DNA of 48,016 bases from the NCBI GenBank assembly GCA_022690815.1, contig JALCZJ010000021.1:1-48016 (forward strand), in the 5' to 3' direction. The notes beneath the pieces were generated by a model. It searched no databases. It was not told where the DNA came from and was given only the letters and a program-made list of their open reading frames with translations. Made by a program: the position numbers and the translations under genes. Source of the DNA: Ferrimicrobium sp. (GTDB lineage: Bacteria; Actinomycetota; Acidimicrobiia; Acidimicrobiales; Acidimicrobiaceae). Below are positions 31,350 to 48,016 of this stretch, piece after piece (positions within the stretch are counted from its first letter, which is position 1; each line of letters begins with the position of its first letter).

Positions 31350-32900
31350 CTAACTGTCGTTGTTGGCGACTGTGGTGTGCTTGGGGTAATGGCGTGAGCG
31401 GTAGTCTTGGCATCTGGTTGGATGCCATGACTTTGGATTCGGCGTACAGAACCTCTCGTTAAGGATCTTCTTCACATCCTTGTACGGAGTGAACCGGCTG
31501 ATCTCGCGATCTTTGATCCTTAATTTGAGGTTCATGGCAGCCACGTGATCTACATCGCCCCGCCGGTTGCAATCCCAGTGTGGATTACGACAATGAAACG
31601 CATCCCCATGTCGGTCGTCACGAGAGACATACCCACACGATGGCTTGGGACACGTTTGGCTGGTGTAGGCCGCGTTGACTGCTTTCATGTTGGAACCTCC
31701 AACATAGGCATGTACCGTCAGGCGTTCTTGATTCTCGTCTCTTGCCCATGACGCACAGAGTCGAGAGATCTTCTTGGATGTGGCCTTGCCACGTAAGTGG
31801 GAGAGGTCTTCGGTGATGATTGCTCGTGGTCGTTGACTGGGAAGTTGTTTGACTCTACCGTTTGCGCGGGTCCTGTTGCCATCACCGTATATCACTTCTT
31901 TGATGGTGGCACCTGATATCGTCTGAAGTTGGGCCTGAAAGCGTCGGAGTCTGGCTTGTTGCTTCTTGGTGCCGAGGTTGTTTCTCGCGATGCGTTTGGC
32001 ACGCTTAGAGCCAACGTCCTTCTTGGAGAGCGCGCGAAGCTTGTTTCTCGCCTTGCCGGTCTTGGTCCGGCCTTCGGTCATGGATGTCAAAGCCTGGCCG
32101 TACTCCTTGCCATGATGCACTCCAGCGTCATCGGTGCAGACCTCGGTAATTCCCCAGTCAAGGGCGACTGGTTCTCCTGTTGCCCCATCGAGGGGCGTGA
32201 TGTCATAGCTCACGTGGATAAAGGTGCGTCTTTGCTGGTCATCGAGCACGACACGGATGTTGCCAGATACCCGTGACCTACCCGCAAGCGGTAACACCAT
32301 GCGCTTGGCCTGAGTTTTGCCAACTACCTTGACATAACGCCTGGTATCGTTGTCTGACACTGAGTAGAGCGTCGAGTCCAAAGACATCTGGCGAGACTCA
32401 ATGACGGTGGGCCACGTGTCATCGAGTGCGTTTCGTATCACACGATGCAGATATGAGACAATCCTGGCTCGTACATCTGGGTCGAGCGTCACCGTGGGTA
32501 TCTCGGGCACACCAGCGCACATGATCCGCCCGATGGCCGAGTATCGGGCGAGACAAGCGTAGGCATAATGCCTCTCCTTCTCGTTTATGAATCGCCGCCC
32601 AATCTTTGCCTTAACGTTACCGATAGCCAAACGAGACTGAATATGGCGGACGCAAGTATCGACGGCATCAAAGGCTGCCTGGTCTACGAGGTGAACATTG
32701 AGACCGGCTGGGTACAGGCCCTGCTGCTTGGCATGGTCACGAAAGCTTCTCCCTCGATCAAGGAGATGCCACAGGCGAGGCTGTCGAAGACGAGTGACAA
32801 AGACACGCTTGGCATCGGTATAGTTCGCAATCACCGAGCACAGCTCTTCGTACTTACCCTTGTTCAGGGGCAAAGTAGCCAGTCGTAGCGTTCGCTTCAT
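31350..32900 (-). CDS. tnpB: TnpB RNA-guided nuclease, IS607-type
   Basis: A 516-residue TnpB from ATG 32900. An in-frame start ten codons earlier lies inside the recombinase and fits less well. RuvC-I is ALDWGITEVCTDD (Asp), RuvC-II is IITEDLSHLRG (Glu), and RuvC-III is RRGDVDHVAAMNL (Asp), so all three catalytic acids are present. The zinc ribbon is QTCPKPSCGYVSRDDRHGDAFHC followed by C six residues later, with wider Cys spacing than the usual CxxC pairs. TnpB proteins cut DNA under guidance of an RNA made from the element's 3' end, helping retention after excision. The start overlaps the current recombinase stop by 4 bases (ATGA). Confidence 0.88.
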   Translation of the reverse strand: MKRTLRLATLPLNKGKYEELCSVIANYTDAKRVFVTRLRQPRLWHLLDRGRSFRDHAKQQGLYPAGLNVHLVDQAAFDAVDTCVRHIQSRLAIGNVKAKIGRRFINEKERHYAYACLARYSAIGRIMCAGVPEIPTVTLDPDVRARIVSYLHRVIRNALDDTWPTVIESRQMSLDSTLYSVSDNDTRRYVKVVGKTQAKRMVLPLAGRSRVSGNIRVVLDDQQRRTFIHVSYDITPLDGATGEPVALDWGITEVCTDDAGVHHGKEYGQALTSMTEGRTKTGKARNKLRALSKKDVGSKRAKRIARNNLGTKKQQARLRRFQAQLQTISGATIKEVIYGDGNRTRANGRVKQLPSQRPRAIITEDLSHLRGKATSKKISRLCASWARDENQERLTVHAYVGGSNMKAVNAAYTSQTCPKPSCGYVSRDDRHGDAFHCRNPHWDCNRRGDVDHVAAMNLKLRIKDREISRFTPYKDVKKILNERFCTPNPKSWHPTRCQDYRSRHYPKHTTVANNDS

Positions 32901-33556
32901 GGTAAGAACCCCAGGACGAGGCTCTGACAACGTGTCATGCGCTGATATCCCTGGTTGCTTCTCGTAGTTGATCCATGACCTGTTTGTTCTGATGACTTTC
33001 CATATAGTCTGGCAGAAAATACCGTGACAATTTCAATCACGTCGCTAGCAAGGTCTTCTTCAAACGACGAATCTTCACTCGCGTTGATGATAATCACCTC
33101 GACGCCGAACTGTTCGCATAGTGCGAATACTAACTCTGAGCCAAAGCGTAGCAACCTGTCCTTGTGACTAAGGACTAGTCTTCCGACTTCGCCAGAGCAA
33201 ATACGGTGAATGAGTTGTTTCAAGCCTCGCTTGTTATAGTTAAGGCCAGACCCAACGTCGGATATTACCTCATAGGTCCAATCTTGGGCGGCGCAGAAGC
33301 TCTCTAGTAGAGCTACTTGGCGAGTAAGGTCATCCTTTTGCCCACTGGTCGATACTCGAGCGTATGCTATCGTAGCACGTGATGATGGTGCCAGATGGGG
33401 CGCTAAGCGACGTAGTTGAGCCAAGTCATAGCGCCGATCTCCTCCTGTTGTCCTTTCTGGTGGATCAATGCGTCCTTCTTCTTCCCATCGCCTAAGAGTG
33501 GATGGATGAACGCCTAGCTCTCTAGCGGCTGCACCGATCGAGACTAACTGGCTGAT
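32897..33556 (-). pseudogene. tnpA: IS607-type serine recombinase, start lost and 3' frameshift
   Basis: The catalytic domain is intact (IAYARVSTSGQKDDLTRQV with the nucleophilic Ser, LVLSHKDRLLRFG, DVIEIVTVFSARLYG). In the same frame upstream of the TTG at 33424 the sequence encodes a MerR-like helix-turn-helix (SIGAAARELGVHPSTLRRWEEEG), the normal IS607 TnpA N-terminus. However, no ATG, GTG or TTG lies between that domain and the TAA at 33589; the expected start position holds ATC (33556). Near 32998 a two-base loss (or one-base gain) shifts the frame: the alternative frame reads SHQNKQVMDQLREATRDISA and stops at 32935, matching the family tail. The protein is probably inactive or poorly made. 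Confidence 0.7.
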
Positions 33557-42140: not shown

Positions 42141-42314
42141 CAACAGCTCCAATTTGATTTCGGTCCCTCTGGTGCGATGGGTTCGGCCCTGTTCCGAGTG
42201 ACGGCAAGCTTCGTTGCGATTGCCATTATCGAGTGCGCCCTCTCTGTGCTGTTTATGCTGCGGCGCGAACGACAGGCGACAGGCGATAGCGGTCCTGCTG
42301 AAGAAGGAGTGGTA
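42141..42314 (+). pseudogene. C-terminal fragment of a membrane protein
   Basis: An open frame entered after a TGA at 42138 encodes one clear membrane helix (SFVAIAIIECALSVLFMLRRER) and a short charged tail. It runs without a stop into the ATP-binding gene that follows. In lactococcin 972-type export loci a large integral membrane protein precedes the ATPase, so this may be the last helix of such a protein. It is only an inference from position. Confidence 0.4.
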
Positions 42315-43000
42315 ATGGCGGAACCGGCCGACCACGTTGCCGCAATGACGGATGTCAGAAAGTCCTACGGGAGGCGCGGGGTGCTAGATCACTTCAACCT
42401 ATCGGTCGGCCGCGGCGAAATGGTCGCGGTGACAGGGCCTAGCGGCTCGGGCAAGTCGACGATGCTCAACATCCTGGGCATGCTTGAGCAGCCCGATGCC
42501 GGGACTGTCGAGATCTGTGGTGTTCGCAACCCGGAGCTGCGGAGCCGGGTCGGGCGGCAGCTCCTGCGTAGCAAAGTGGCATACCTGTTCCAGAACTTCG
42601 CCCTCATAGACGAGGGTACGGCGCGCTCGAATCTCACGGCGCCCCTGTCCGCCACCGGCGCCGCTCGGAGAGGTTGGAAGGATGCGATGCGCTCAGCGCG
42701 GTCGATCTCGACGTTGCCTTGGAGCAGCCGGTCGCTACGCTCTCAGGTGGTGAGCAGCAACGCCTGGCGTGTGCCCGCGCGCTGCTGCGTCCTGTTGAAC
42801 TGCTGCTGGCTGATGAGCCGACGGGCGCGCTGGACGCCGGGAACCGTGACGTGGTGCTCCGCCTGCTACAGGACCGGAATCAAGCGGGGGTCACCGTCGT
42901 CGTTGTCACGCACGATCCTGCGGTCGTCCGGGTATGCGGGCGAACGCTTCAGCTCGGGCAAACCACGATCGGTCTGGGTGCTCGGACTTCTAACATCTAG
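42315..43000 (+). pseudogene. ABC transporter ATPase, bacteriocin-export type, frameshifted
   Basis: ATG 42315 has AAGGAG 5 bases upstream. The first frame gives VRKSYGRRGVLDHFNLSV, Walker A GPSGSGKST and Q-loop YLFQNFALID. From about 42680 homology moves to another frame: LSGGEQQR signature, LLLADEPTGALD Walker B and VVVVTHDP H-loop. The stop is at 43000. All ATPase motifs exist, but a frameshift separates Walker A from the signature, so no full protein is made unless there is recoding. YLFQNFALID is typical of ATPases in lactococcin 972-type immunity/export systems. The upstream membrane fragment fits that context. Confidence 0.75.
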
Positions 43001-43122
43001 ACTTGGTGACGACGATCGATGCAGGATCCTGAACGCGAAGCGAGGCTGCTTTACGTGATCGGGAGGGGTTGCCCACGAGAGGGTGTCCCGTATCCCCGGT
43101 GAAGATTCTCGCAAGGGTGCCC

Positions 43123-43743
43123 CTATACGGACACCTCCACCAAGAGGTTGGTCGCGCCCGGACCCCGGCCACCGACGGCGCGTTCCGAGGCAGGGCGCAG
43201 GGCCTGGTAGAGCGTCTCGCGGCTGACGCCGGGCTCACGAGCGAGCACCGCCTTCGGTACGCCGTCTTCGACCTGGCGGCGCAGCTCGGCCACCTGGTCG
43301 TCGTTCAGGGGCCTCTTGCGTCCCCGGTAGGCGCACCGCTTCTTGGCCAGCTCGATGCCCTCGCGTTGGCGCTCCCGGATCAAGGAGCGCTCGAACTCTG
43401 CGCAGGCGCCCATCACCGACAGCAGCAAGTTCGCCATCGCGGTGTCGTCGCCGGTGAAGGTGAGCTGCTCCTTGACGAAGTGGACCTGTACTCCCTTGGC
43501 GGTGAGCTTGCGCACGATCGATCGTAGGTCATCGAGGTTGCGGGCCAGGCGGTCCATGGAGTGCACGACCACGGTGTCGCCGTCGCGGACGAAGCCGACC
43601 ATCGCCTCCAGCTCCGGCCGGCGTACGTCCATGCCCGATGCCGTGTCGGTGAAGGTCCGGTCGAGCGGCACGCCGTCGAGCTGGCGGTCGCTGCGCTGGT
43701 CGATGGCGCTCACCCTGATGTAGCCGACCTGCTGACCGCTCAT
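43123..43743 (-). CDS. Serine recombinase of the resolvase/invertase family
   Basis: A 206-residue protein from ATG 43743, with GGAGGAG ideally placed. The catalytic Ser is in GYIRVSAIDQ. VVVHSMDRLARNLDDLR and EFERSLIRERQREGIELA (helix E) are canonical, and a Hin-type helix-turn-helix (LNDDQVAELRRQVEDGVPKAVLAREPGVSRETLYQAL) occupies about 140-185. Proteins like this resolve Tn3-family cointegrates or invert DNA. No transposase is present in the window. Direct repeats just upstream may be its site. An open frame continues upstream but is not protein-like. Confidence 0.9.
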   Translation of the reverse strand: MSGQQVGYIRVSAIDQRSDRQLDGVPLDRTFTDTASGMDVRRPELEAMVGFVRDGDTVVVHSMDRLARNLDDLRSIVRKLTAKGVQVHFVKEQLTFTGDDTAMANLLLSVMGACAEFERSLIRERQREGIELAKKRCAYRGRKRPLNDDQVAELRRQVEDGVPKAVLAREPGVSRETLYQALRPASERAVGGRGPGATNLLVEVSV

Positions 43744-43979: not shown

Positions 43980-44330
43980 TCAACCGCGGAGTCGTTCCTC
44001 TGGACGCTGGCGGGGACCAACGGCGAGGAACAGGGCGCAGCCGGCCGTGGCCGTCACTACAGCCACCCACCATCCGATGGGGTCCGTGGCAGGTCGGAGC
44101 GTCCAGGCCCAAGGCGCGATCTGGCCCGTTGGGCCCTCCCCCAGCGAGACGTTGACAACGACATCGCCAACTGGGAGGAACGCGGCGGCGCTCGAACCGA
44201 CCAGCGGCGCAGCGATCAGGCCCAGTCCCGCGAGACCGACGAAGTTCCGAACGACGAGGAGGGCCTGGCCGTCGGGTTGAGTAGCGGGTGGGGCCCCCTC
44301 GGGAGTGCTTACCGTGGCTTTCCGTTTCAT
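43980..44330 (-). CDS. Small membrane protein of unknown function
   Basis: A 116-residue protein from ATG 44330 with GGGA upstream. Residues 28-58 (VVRNFVGLAGLGLIAAPLVGS...) and about 83-106 (GWWVAVVTATAGCALFLAV) are likely membrane helices joined by an extracytoplasmic loop. The tail is arginine-rich. I recognise no family. It follows the 71-residue membrane protein gene by 33 bases in the same direction, so they look like an operon, possibly immunity or transport partners of the peptide locus to the right. Confidence 0.5.
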   Translation of the reverse strand: MKRKATVSTPEGAPPATQPDGQALLVVRNFVGLAGLGLIAAPLVGSSAAAFLPVGDVVVNVSLGEGPTGQIAPWAWTLRPATDPIGWWVAVVTATAGCALFLAVGPRQRPEERLRG

Positions 44331-44363
44331 TGTTCCCGGAGAGCCGCAACCGAACGAACTACA

Positions 44364-44579
44364 TCAGCCGGGGGAAGTCGGCGGCTGCTTGAGATGACCT
44401 GAGATTACGGTGACGTGGAGAGTGCTGGGCAGCAACACATGGGCGACATCCGCGGCCAGGCCAACCAGCAATGCGAAGACCAGGTACAAGACAAAGAGGT
44501 ACCCGATCCAGCCGAAAGGTGTCCAGTGGCGAGGTTCACCAAGCTTACGGAGAGTTCTTATCCGCAGGCTGTCCTCCAT
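44364..44579 (-). CDS. Small single-span membrane protein
   Basis: A 71-residue protein from ATG 44579 with GGAG 5 bases upstream. A charged N-terminus (MEDSLRIRTLRKLGEPRHW) precedes one long hydrophobic segment (about 24-45, WIGYLFVLYLVFALLVGLA) and a short tail. The good ribosome-binding site and the tandem arrangement with the next gene argue that it is real. Function unknown. Confidence 0.5.
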   Translation of the reverse strand: MEDSLRIRTLRKLGEPRHWTPFGWIGYLFVLYLVFALLVGLAADVAHVLLPSTLHVTVISGHLKQPPTSPG

Positions 44580-44710
44580 GTCATCTCCAGTCAGTTGGGG
44601 GCAGTGCCCGAGAACGTGTAGTGCCGATGAGCGTACACGTTGATGGTGATGGTCGGGTACTGGTTTAACACGCAGAGCCCCGTCGCCGGTGTCGAAGCAC
44701 GGGCATATCC

Positions 44711-44824
44711 CTATGAAAGGTCGTAGAACTGCGAGTTCACCCCAATGTAGTGCCTTGACTGAGCCACGAGGTTAGACACCACCTTCTCGGCGACGTCCGG
44801 AAGGCCGGTGAAATAGGTGGACAT
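44711..44824 (-). CDS. Possible 37-residue peptide or gene tail
   Basis: A short frame with balanced, protein-like composition (MSTYFTGLPDVAEKVVSNLV, then QSRHYIGVNSQFYDLS). The frame is open further upstream to the end of the hydrolase gene without a usual start, so it may be the last part of a truncated gene. No ribosome-binding site is convincing. Confidence 0.25.
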   Translation of the reverse strand: MSTYFTGLPDVAEKVVSNLVAQSRHYIGVNSQFYDLS

Positions 44825-44895
44825 GTAGGGGTGCGCGTCCGACCCGGGTCGGTCACAACGCGCCCCGCTCGATAACGCGATTCGAACGACGACGC

Positions 44896-45699
44896 TTAGC
44901 CAATCGCCTGCTTTACGACCTGGGCTGCTCGTTCAGGATCGGCGAGCACCACTAGCTCGCCCCACTCGCTCTCTAGCTCCACGACCGCTGTGTGTTCGAG
45001 CTCGTGAGCGAGCCTGCTGGTCAATTCGAGCGCCGCAGCCCGCTGGTCTGCCTGCTTGCTCAGCACCGGCGCCAGCGTCACTGGGGTTGTCAGGTTACCG
45101 AGGCGGTTCGCAACCCTTATAGGTCGGTACTTCTGTAGATGTTTGGCACGCTTCTTGAAATCCGCGATCATGTCATCGGCGACGGCCTGCCAAGACAGTG
45201 CCTCGCTTGTGTCGGTAGCGTCCCATTGCAGGTCCCGGACACTCATGTTCCTGCCCCGACGCCGACGAGCCACGCTCCTCACCTCGAGTCCAACAAGTTT
45301 CAACATCGCGTTTCCCCTGGCACGATCCATCACATCCCCTACGTAACGTTCGCTTCGGGGGTCCACATACTCAGGAAGAGCGGGCTGGATGAGAACCACA
45401 GATCGAACCGGTACACCCCCGTCTAGAGCAATGGCCAACGCGGTAGCTGTCGAAGTGGAACTGGAGACGAGTGCGATCTCGTCCAGCTCGAGGTGCGCCA
45501 CTAGCTCCATGACATCCTCTACCCTGTCCGCTTTAGCCTCGGACAGTGGCGACGCTCCGATACCGCGTTCATTCGGCAATACACACGTGTACGACGTTGC
45601 GAGTAACCGCACAACTCCCGACCACAGCCGCCGATCATACGATACTGGATGAAGAAATACTGTAGCCGGTCCCTTGCCATCAAGCTCGTAGTCAATCAT
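44896..45699 (-). CDS. Alpha/beta-hydrolase-like protein with atypical nucleophile elbow
   Basis: A 267-residue protein from ATG 45699, with GAGGAGG about 9 bases upstream. The fold is suggested by TVFLHPVSYDRRLWSGVV (oxyanion region), VLPNERGIGASPLSEAK and the strand-helix around IALVSSSTSTATALAIAL. The nucleophile elbow, normally GxSxG, reads SSSTS (residues 79-83): the serine is kept but both glycines are replaced. I see no clear C-terminal catalytic histidine. It may be an altered hydrolase or a non-catalytic relative. It starts 47 bases after the Cys-rich precursor gene in the same direction, so a role in immunity or maturation is possible. Confidence 0.62.
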   Translation of the reverse strand: MIDYELDGKGPATVFLHPVSYDRRLWSGVVRLLATSYTCVLPNERGIGASPLSEAKADRVEDVMELVAHLELDEIALVSSSTSTATALAIALDGGVPVRSVVLIQPALPEYVDPRSERYVGDVMDRARGNAMLKLVGLEVRSVARRRRGRNMSVRDLQWDATDTSEALSWQAVADDMIADFKKRAKHLQKYRPIRVANRLGNLTTPVTLAPVLSKQADQRAAALELTSRLAHELEHTAVVELESEWGELVVLADPERAAQVVKQAIG

Positions 45700-45746
45700 A
45701 CGACGCGCCTCCTCGTGTCGGTGGACTGTCGAAGCCCTGCGTGGGG

Positions 45747-46343
45747 CTAGAACCCGAGTGTACATTGAAGCGCACAGATACCTAAATCGATTCCCGCACA
45801 CGCGGCGCAAGCTGCACAAGTGATGGGATCTTCGCACAATTCACAGATTTCGAGACAGTCCTCAGTGACCCTGGCGGCAAGACACAAGATAACGCAGCGA
45901 AAGAATCCCCTCCGTGCATCGGGAAGGGCTTCAGCGGATGGCGACATCTCGGCCACGAAGCGGCCACCGACTAGATGGAGCGTACCAACAGGGTCACCCG
46001 AGACAGTAGACACTTGTAGTCCAAGCGGGTCAGAGTGGGCCGTGACGACGAGAGAAGGAACCGCAGGGCTGCTTTCAGGAACCGCAACCACGAGGACACT
46101 TGGCGCGGCAGGAACCACAGGCCTCAATGATAACGCATACAGCGTAGCGGATCGGGTGGTCCCAGGCTCTTCGGACTCAGACACAACCTGGCTCGTGGCT
46201 CCTGACCAGTTTGGAGGCCCGAAGACGGCACTCGCACGAACCACGTCAGGATGGCTCTCCAAGGCCGCACGGGCAGTTAACGACAGTGGCAAGGGTCTGC
46301 TTACCCGGACGCGACGAGGGGCGAGGATTGGGATGACACGCAA
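45747..46343 (-). CDS. Putative secreted ten-cysteine bacteriocin precursor (halocin C8-like)
   Basis: 198 residues if started at TTG 46343; a longer form with a leader is encoded upstream. Residues 25-145 form a cysteine-free domain rich in Ser, Val and Pro. The last 50 residues contain ten cysteines: FFRCVILC, EDCLEICELC, ITCAACAAC and GICALQC near the end. Halocin C8-type peptides are made as Tat-exported precursors with a long N-terminal (immunity) part and a C-terminal peptide of about 76 residues with ten cysteines. The similarity is in layout and cysteine count, not a proven alignment. The preceding CxxC protein could handle disulfides. The gene lies between that protein and the hydrolase-like gene. 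Confidence 0.6.
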   Translation of the reverse strand: MRVIPILAPRRVRVSRPLPLSLTARAALESHPDVVRASAVFGPPNWSGATSQVVSESEEPGTTRSATLYALSLRPVVPAAPSVLVVAVPESSPAVPSLVVTAHSDPLGLQVSTVSGDPVGTLHLVGGRFVAEMSPSAEALPDARRGFFRCVILCLAARVTEDCLEICELCEDPITCAACAACAGIDLGICALQCTLGF

Positions 46344-46412
46344 TGGTAGGATGCCGGCGGCTGCGGCGAGAGCTGCGAAAGAAGACGCTTTACCAAGTAG
46401 TTCGCGACGGCT
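46344..46412 (-). other. In-frame twin-arginine-like leader without start codon
   Basis: In phase with the precursor gene and directly after the TGA of the upstream gene, 23 codons read SRRELLGKASSFAALAAAAG then ILP. This has the (S/T)RRxxL and alanine-rich h-region of a Tat signal. No ATG, GTG or TTG lies in these codons. If the TGA at 46413-46415 were TGG, a GTG at 46430 would start a complete signal peptide. Confidence 0.55.
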
Positions 46413-46802
46413 TCAGGTCCGACCGCTCACCCCGGTTATCTGATCAGCTTGACGGGGAGGTTCCTTAATGGTGTACCCCGTGTACCCCCACACGTCTCTC
46501 AGCAGACGAGTGGAGCGCACTGGTCCGACGAGACGGGCAAGCTGCAAGCGTAATCGCAAACCGCGCCAGGTTGGTAGCTTCTGGCCGGTGCCCCGGCAGA
46601 GAATCGGCTCGAACCGGGACTGCAACAGAACTTGAATTGCTTCAGGCAGAGTTGGATCCTCATGACTGCGGATTGTGAGTTGTCCCTCGCAGATGGACTG
46701 TAGCGTTCGAGCGAGCTGGCTGCACGGAACGCAGTTGAGATCCGCGACGAGCATGTAGTTCGCTGTGGGTTGAGGAGCGGGGTCTTCGTCAGTGTTCGGC
46801 AT
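46413..46802 (-). CDS. Small CxxC thioredoxin-like protein
   Basis: A 129-residue protein from ATG 46802 with GAGG about 9 bases upstream. YMLVADLNCVPCSQLARTLQ (about 16-35) is a beta strand followed by CVPC at the start of a helix, the layout of thioredoxin-fold redox sites. The second half is arginine- and leucine-rich (TWRGLRLRLQLARLVGPVRS). It is probably a disulfide or redox partner of the ten-cysteine precursor encoded immediately downstream in the same frame. The frame of this gene and that of the precursor are one, separated only by a TGA. No exact family name is claimed. Confidence 0.6.
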   Translation of the reverse strand: MPNTDEDPAPQPTANYMLVADLNCVPCSQLARTLQSICEGQLTIRSHEDPTLPEAIQVLLQSRFEPILCRGTGQKLPTWRGLRLRLQLARLVGPVRSTRLLRDVWGYTGYTIKEPPRQADQITGVSGRT

Positions 46803-47402: not shown

Positions 47403-48016
47403 TCGACGGCGTACCTGGACGGCGAGCGGTCTTGCCTGTCGGGGTGGTTGTGGGCTTGGGGTGGCGGGCTGGCCGGGTTCCCTTCGACCCCGGCGGGTTA
47501 CGCCGGTCTGGTGGCGACGGGGGAGGCACGCCGGGATCTGTGGCGTTACAGCTGTCTGGCGGTGGCCGGGACGGGAGTGGTCGCGATCGGCGTGGCCCGG
47601 GGGAGGCCGGCGAGCGGGCCGGCGATCTTGGCCAACTCGCTGCTGGTGGTAATCGCCTGGGCCGCGGGTTGGGCGGTCCGCTCAACCCGCCAGCTGGCCG
47701 CTTCCCGGGTGTCGCTCGAACACGAGCAGGCCGCCAGGCGGCTCTCTGAGAACCGTTTGGCGATGAGCGACGTCCTCCACGACCGGGTCGGTCACACCCT
47801 GGTCGGGGTGCTCCGCCAGCTCGAGGCCGCCCAGGCGCTCTTCGAGGTCGACCCGGTCGGCGCCGGAACACTCATCGAGCGGGTAACCGGACGGGTGGGA
47901 GAAGCCATGGGGGAGGTGAGCGCCATGGTCGTCCAGAACCAAGAGCTGCCGGCAGCGAGAGCAGAGCTAGCCCCGACACCAGGTGGTGGTGGGGTGTTGG
48001 GAGACACCCTGGGCCG
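47403..48016 (+). CDS. NarL-type sensor histidine kinase, partial
   Basis: An open frame in phase 47403 runs off the window. It encodes LWRYSCLAVAGTGVVAIGVA and ANSLLVVIAWAAGWAVRS, two membrane helices, then a coiled linker (ASRVSLEHEQAARRLSENRLAMSD) and the HisKA_3 box VLHDRVGHTLVGVLRQLEAA with the phosphorylated His. The ATPase domain must lie beyond 48016. No good start exists in this frame (TTG 47448 is possible). The preceding 100 bases read membrane-like sequence in a second frame (RRAVLPVGVVVGLGW), suggesting an N-terminal frameshift. Very high GC compared with the rest of the window. Confidence 0.65.

Follow-up and report, generated by a model that had tools for sequence, protein, structure and literature searches.

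The ten-cysteine locus and its interrupted reading frame

The window analysed here is a 48,016-nt stretch of a Ferrimicrobium sp. contig (JALCZJ010000021.1), and all coordinates refer to this full length. On its minus strand, at 43980-46802, lies a locus which a first-pass annotation had proposed as a peptide-antibiotic cluster, with a CxxC open reading frame (ORF), a ten-cysteine precursor ORF, a hydrolase-like ORF and two small hydrophobic ORFs following one another, and all five are present (Table 1). The ten cysteines are packed, as that annotation had it, near the precursor's end: they occupy 45 residues close to the end of the ORF (173-217 of the second gene half), with spacing 3-8-3-2-5-2-2-7-3 and a CxxCxxC triplet. 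Across six frames this is the sole stop-free 45-codon stretch of the window with at least eight cysteines.

The CxxC ORF (ATG 46802 to TGA 46413) and the ten-cysteine ORF share a common reading frame, with the TGA at 46413-46415 as the sole separator, and the first codon after it opens SRRELLGKASSFAALAAAAG. The TTG at 46343, listed as the start of a 198-aa ORF, falls behind the signal-like segment, and none of the 23 codons ahead of it is ATG, GTG or TTG; the actual open frame comprises 221 codons. Because both halves align in order with one ORF (L038) of another genome, G070, the supposed redox gene and the precursor are most likely one gene split by the TGA, and what had been taken for a separate redox partner corresponds by homology to the leader domain of that protein.

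In single BLASTP comparisons with L038, the leader scored E 6e-05 and the second half E 4e-07. In shuffle tests against G070 (n = 1000), the leader reached z 13.9 and the second half z 15.6, with 0/1000 shuffles as good for either half; when all cysteines were held fixed, the second half still gave z 5.5 (0/1000 as good), and the cysteine-free linker alone gave z 4.5, a value reached by 1/1000 shuffles. Against G464, a second genome with a homologous locus, the leader reached z 17.7 and the cysteine half z 31.4, or 9.7 with cysteines fixed (0/1000 as good for this half in either test). Profile A8, built from relatives with the window row left out, picked the leader half out of 399 window ORFs at E 1.4e-11; the same profile in a genome-wide search of the window's own genome gave no match at E <= 0.001. 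The matches of profiles A2 and A6 across the TGA (one TGA inside) are not independent proof of a single gene, since both profiles include the window leader as a row.

Table 1. Features of the locus and its flank in the window (positions in nt)
Feature	Position	Strand	Remarks
CxxC leader half	46416..46802	-	129 aa, ATG 46802, CVPC motif
In-frame TGA, between leader half and signal-like segment	46413..46415	-	
Signal-like segment SRRELLGKASSFAALAAAAGILPL	46341..46412	-	Tat-like RR; located as the [STNG]RxxF[LIV] segment in relatives
Second gene half: signal-like segment, linker and ten-cysteine C-terminus	45750..46412	-	221 codons, without usable start
Ten-cysteine domain	45762..45896	-	C3C8C3C2C5C2C2C7C3C
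Alpha/beta-hydrolase-fold partner	44896..45699	-	267 aa, catalytic His absent, nucleophile position S81
Small protein with one transmembrane segment (TM)	44364..44579	-	71 aa, GGAG ahead of ATG
Small two-TM protein	43980..44330	-	116 aa
Lactococcin-972-type ABC ATPase relic, frameshifted	42177..43058	+	other half in the frame of 42674-43000

A leader of probable thioredoxin fold

Both cysteines of the CxxC motif are invariant throughout alignment A2. An AlphaFold model computed on this alignment, with L038 as its first row, contains a block over residues 1-100 with predicted local distance difference test (pLDDT) values of 71-96, the confidence elsewhere being low and the mean 65. Foldseek matches in the Protein Data Bank (PDB) to residues 1-90 of the model were, among those listed, mostly thioredoxin-fold chains with modest values, the fold labels of the matched chains being in part presumed. 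One of them, 6x61_B, which we take to be the N-terminal domain of SasA, matched with Z 5.7 and a root-mean-square deviation (rmsd) of 4.0 over 79 aligned residues; the top row, 6kwj (Z 6.4), aligns with a different part of the model. Searching PDB sequences with the profile of the leader returned nothing convincing. The Pfam model DCC1-like (PF04134) matched weakly in 3/24 rows of alignment A1 (best E 0.0026). With DCC1-like thiol-disulfide oxidoreductases the leader shares the CxxC motif, a comparable length and weak profile similarity, but L038 scores 15.5 bits against a cut-off of 27.8, and the domain is here fused to a predicted exported protein. Judging from the structure model, the leader half is most likely a thioredoxin-fold CxxC domain.

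Distribution and architecture of the family

In the non-truncated relatives, one ORF of about 290-610 aa comprises the CxxC domain, a [STNG]RxxF[LIV] segment, a linker and a C-terminus that varies and is often rich in cysteine; a purine-rich ribosome-binding site often precedes the leader start. Two members (L020 and L030) carry a C-terminal M23 peptidase domain instead of the cysteine-rich end. The fused architecture is spanned by no Pfam or NCBIfam model among the 24 A1 rows scanned, and no published account of it turned up among titles and abstract openings, which does not prove the architecture unpublished.

Profile A6, which was built with rows from several of the matching genomes, matched 17 of 396 genomes of the phylum: the window's own and 16 others, of which 15 belong to one family (Rubrobacteraceae, judging by contig names) and one to another. 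Within Rubrobacteraceae the matches amount to 15 of 39 genomes, with Rubrobacter taiwanensis among the contig names. The CxxC half alone as query matched 19/396 genomes, its own included; two weak rows of that search (G315 and G390) proved on reading not to be family, were absent from the A6 search and were dropped. Among 397 genomes of the host's order, G464 is the sole other convincing member; three of five matches in the order (G531, G758 and G403) cover only the vicinity of the signal segment, look like ordinary proteins of the twin-arginine translocation (Tat) pathway and were likewise discarded. The precursor alone as query found no close relatives in viral contigs, plasmids or genome contigs, and in 60 relatives it gave weak matches, the best with E 0.0137, in 9 genomes other than its own.

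One single-contig genome carries an array of the family: over about 21 kb of G070 (L051 and L052, G070:C1:2226000-2256000) there are four intact family genes with differing C-termini, plus two fragments. At another locus (L059:5346-8952, plus strand), a subtilase (Peptidase_S8) and a Big_5 protein precede the family gene, with related pairs in L058 and L061; the subtilase is a possible maturation protease for the precursor beside it.

The predicted export segment

The arginine pair of the signal-like segment is RR only in the window, G464, L016 and L031, and elsewhere RK, RG, RA or RS. An AxA site follows the segment in 21 of the 23 members that carry it, and the formate_TAT model matched 11/24 rows of A1, weakly (best E 0.0012). 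We infer export through Tat or the general secretory (Sec) pathway. The earlier proposal of an exported cysteine-rich peptide is supported as a candidate.

The ten-cysteine domain and its hydrolase-fold partner

The ten-cysteine type was found at four loci, namely the window, G464 (L072), G070 (L038) and G144, the last of which was found by reading. All ten cysteines of the window, G464 and G070 are in register in alignments A3 and A4: the spacing in G464 is identical to that in the window, and in G070 one loop is 9 in place of 5. G144 has kept the last six cysteines, with the same spacing 5-2-2-7-3. Searches with alignment A4, which missed the shortened G144 copy, found G464 as the only case in its family (1/2 genomes) and G070 as the only case in its own (1/39).

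In the window, the hydrolase-like ORF begins with the ATG at 45699 behind GAGGAGG, 47 nt downstream of the ten-cysteine ORF, and its match to Pfam Abhydrolase_6 is 27.8 bits against a cut-off of 26.3. An alpha/beta-hydrolase-fold ORF is the next gene on the same strand in 4/4 ten-cysteine loci, and no orthologue of this partner was found in the other loci from L040 onward at E <= 1e-3. The alpha/beta-hydrolase-like ORF downstream of the M23-type L020 is a different one, with a canonical GHSSGG. The window partner model, built on four sequences, has a mean pLDDT of 68 with 60 residues below 50; compared with the PDB, its best match was 5hzg_A (Z 18.1, rmsd 4.5, 185 aligned), and the top 50 rows spanned Z 15.3-18.1.

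At the nucleophile position the partners have S (window), D (G464), H (G070) and E (G144), and at the position of the catalytic His, as read from the alignment, E, T, P and P in the same order. Alignment of the G070 partner, and of this one only, to the solved structure 3om8 places His at the Ser and Pro at the His. None of the four partners therefore has both the nucleophile and the catalytic His of an active alpha/beta-hydrolase. The overall fold is that of alpha/beta-hydrolase fold proteins (PF12697; RsbQ, KAI2/D14 and esterases), whereas the partners are without the catalytic His and have S, D, H or E at the nucleophile position. We read the partner as a pseudo-enzyme, in which the nucleophile Ser could remain in the window copy. 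In these respects the earlier annotation is supported: the cysteine positions recur in homologues (all ten at three loci, six at the fourth), the order of precursor and hydrolase is kept at all four loci, and the hydrolase is indeed altered, with a variable nucleophile position and the catalytic His gone.

Exchange of C-termini together with downstream genes

Four family genes of G070 have leaders that are 74-96% identical and remainders that are 22-30% identical. A cassette swap can be seen between two near-identical genomes: G144:C1 and G166:C5 share a 7.1-kb stretch of 98.3% identity that ends about 290 nt inside the gene and, beyond the gene, a 6.3-kb stretch of 98.8% identity, and the part between holds an 18-cysteine C-terminus in G166 and a six-cysteine remnant with the hydrolase in G144. 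With other C-terminus types, small hydrophobic proteins lie downstream and differ between types.

The tie between C-terminus and partner was tested on 20 members, leaving out the M23-type L020 and L030 as well as L031 and the truncated L023. There were 12 pairs with homologous partners, and in 11 of these the C-termini were also homologous, a count matched by 0/10000 label shuffles. The BLAST comparison was run without composition correction and is generous to cysteine-rich similarity. Conversely, 30 of the 41 pairs with homologous C-termini share no partner, so that at this loose threshold the tie is one-way. At the level of sequence it is established that a constant leader is joined to varying C-termini and that, at one locus of two near-identical genomes, C-terminus and downstream gene are exchanged together.

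Disrupted copies

Three of the four ten-cysteine copies are disrupted, and G070 is intact. G464 has its leader and its cysteine part in separate frames. The G144 copy has a shortened linker and an out-of-frame cysteine part, and its hydrolase frame offers no usual start ahead of the conserved N-terminus. Since three of four copies are disrupted, the window copy is probably inactivated, or else misread, with its partner ORF still open. In a further genome, G209 (L049:8366-9377), the leader gene is truncated immediately behind the signal motif, with a DDE transposase gene next to it; the lost C-terminal part may be located at the start of contig G209:C139.

Surroundings of the locus

The two small membrane proteins (71 and 116 aa) have no homologues in 97 loci, G464 included (E <= 1). 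Beyond them, an open serine-recombinase ORF (Resolvase and HTH_7; 43123-43743, minus strand) separates the small membrane ORFs from the ABC ATPase relic, and its presence beside the locus suggests an exchange-prone site. The relic of a bacteriocin-type ABC ATPase announced for 42.3-43.0 kb is real, lying frameshifted on the plus strand: its N-terminal half, in the ORF 42177-43058, covers only positions 1-107 of 206 of the TIGR03608 profile, and its C-terminal half is an ABC_tran remainder in a different frame, at 42674-43000. Farther away on the minus strand (31350-33424), a serine-resolvase ORF (32897-33424) is followed by a TnpB/Cas12f1-like TNB protein (31350-32930) in an IS607-like arrangement.

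On the other side, a HisKA_3 histidine kinase (47448-48016, plus strand) is cut off by the contig end. LuxR-type response regulators stand immediately upstream of relatives in L053 and L061, and in L054 by clustering. Kinase and LuxR-type neighbours together hint at two-component control of the family.

Weighing the readings

We give a probability of about 0.5 to the reading that the locus belongs, probably as an inactivated copy, to a modular family of predicted exported proteins that are bacteriocin-like and have cognate partners. Several observations weigh against it. Most members have RG or RA in the export segment, which is atypical for Tat, and the AxA site is absent from the window and from the truncated L023. 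Between residues 1-70 of the second half and the tail end of the G464 leader ORF, similarity is no better than in shuffles (z -0.1), and profile A8, without the window row, misses the second half in the direct search of window ORFs, so that the signal segment of the window is recognised by position and motif. A single intact ten-cysteine gene was found, that of G070, and the swapped stretch in G166 is without an obvious partner of its own. The shuffles of the partner test ignore common descent, and the partners were picked beforehand among candidate ORFs. It would also be odd for immunity to an exported peptide to come from a cytosolic pseudo-hydrolase. A chaperone-substrate pair serving a cofactor protein would be nearly as good an explanation of the hydrolase and the co-swap, although it accounts less well for why C-termini and downstream membrane proteins are so diverse.

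The split itself might come from a mistake in sequencing or assembly, or from a mutation that arose very recently in the population; the gene would then be otherwise intact and the system working. The source genome is a 60-contig assembly, and past the TGA 221 codons stay open with all ten cysteines in place, which speaks for this reading. Real decay is, however, common in this type, as G464 is broken elsewhere and G144 also, the window has no AxA site, and the G+C content at third codon positions of its second half is low (0.55, versus 0.65-0.75 in eleven large or core window genes); we consider an error or a recent mutation unlikely. Recoding, by which both halves would be made as working products via readthrough, selenocysteine or an unusual start, would account for a single TGA in an otherwise common frame, and the disruption of hydrolase-linked members in three of four genomes could hint at a regulated split. 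Yet the three lesions are unlike in place and kind, and G070 is intact. No SECIS-like or readthrough structure after the window TGA was better than shuffles (z +1.28), and just ahead of the SR motif the relatives mostly carry I, L, V, M or F (L031 has P) and not Cys. Because no stable structure follows the TGA and a mostly hydrophobic residue stands there in relatives, selenocysteine insertion or readthrough is unlikely, and for recoding as a whole we see quite a slim chance.

As to function, the family may not be antimicrobial at all and may export a metal- or cofactor-binding cysteine-rich protein, with the hydrolase-fold protein as its assembly chaperone. Tat typically exports pre-folded cofactor proteins, the ten-cysteine domain has its CxxCxxC triplet, and co-swapping suits chaperone-substrate pairs too; but strong diversification, multi-copy arrays, the cassette swap and unrelated small membrane proteins behind other C-termini look like conflict rather than a housekeeping cofactor, and two members have an M23 peptidase domain instead, so that we regard this function as rather improbable. 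A far smaller likelihood attaches to a halocin C8-type bacteriocin, the class to which the first-pass annotation had likened the locus. The halocin C8 peptide has ten cysteines, and the spacing in the window is presumably unlike that of halocin C8. The halocin C8 precursor is described as Tat-exported and processed, with a long N-terminal part, HalI, acting as the immune peptide, and a C-terminal peptide (PMC11509114). The outlines are alike, with predicted export, a long N-terminal part or linker and a ten-cysteine C-terminus, whereas the window family has an additional thioredoxin-fold leader ahead of the signal and a separate downstream partner gene. Membership did not stand: the halocin C8 model TIGR04449 (cut-off 24 bits) matched no window protein at E <= 10, 0/24 rows of A1 at E <= 1 and nothing in genome G000 at E <= 0.1. 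In 60 relatives it had no match above the cut-off and two below, and among 14 control genomes one had a match above.

A possible mechanism and its implications

If the locus does belong to a family of bacteriocin-like exported proteins, the leader would remain at or inside the membrane and, as a cytosolic redox chaperone, would keep or oxidise thiols. Signal peptidase would cleave after the AxA site, and the cysteine-rich part would be released, folded by disulfides and able to inhibit related bacteria. The downstream gene would shield the producer as cognate immunity, for the ten-cysteine type through a binding pseudo-enzyme. In the window, the TGA would sever the leader from the export signal and the peptide; the peptide would then probably not be made while the partner ORF is open, a state comparable to that of an immune non-producer retaining immunity alone.

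Polymorphic toxin and bacteriocin-immunity systems combine a constant N-terminal module, swapped C-termini, a downstream gene specific to the C-terminus and disrupted copies. The window family resembles this class in its constant leader, swapped C-termini, tied downstream gene and disrupted copies, and differs from it in that the leader is a thioredoxin-like CxxC domain and the candidate partner of the ten-cysteine type is a triad-less alpha/beta-hydrolase fold. The kind is thus known in general, and the leader and the hydrolase-fold partner appear to be the new points. More tentatively, the loci may represent a new polymorphic exported-peptide family with a built-in thioredoxin-fold leader as redox chaperone, a warhead swapped with its immunity gene and, for the ten-cysteine type, a dead alpha/beta hydrolase as immunity protein.

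The swapped locus in the two near-identical genomes G144 and G166 is a natural experiment, and the intact G070 member with its partner, whose single-contig genome belongs to the Rubrobacteraceae group, offers a direct handle on the pairing of toxin and immunity and on the thioredoxin-fold leader. If the proposal is true, multi-disulfide peptides of bacteria, built on a readable leader-core-partner grammar, would form a reservoir that is unnamed in the libraries scanned, and possibly a new kind of bacterial peptide weapon.

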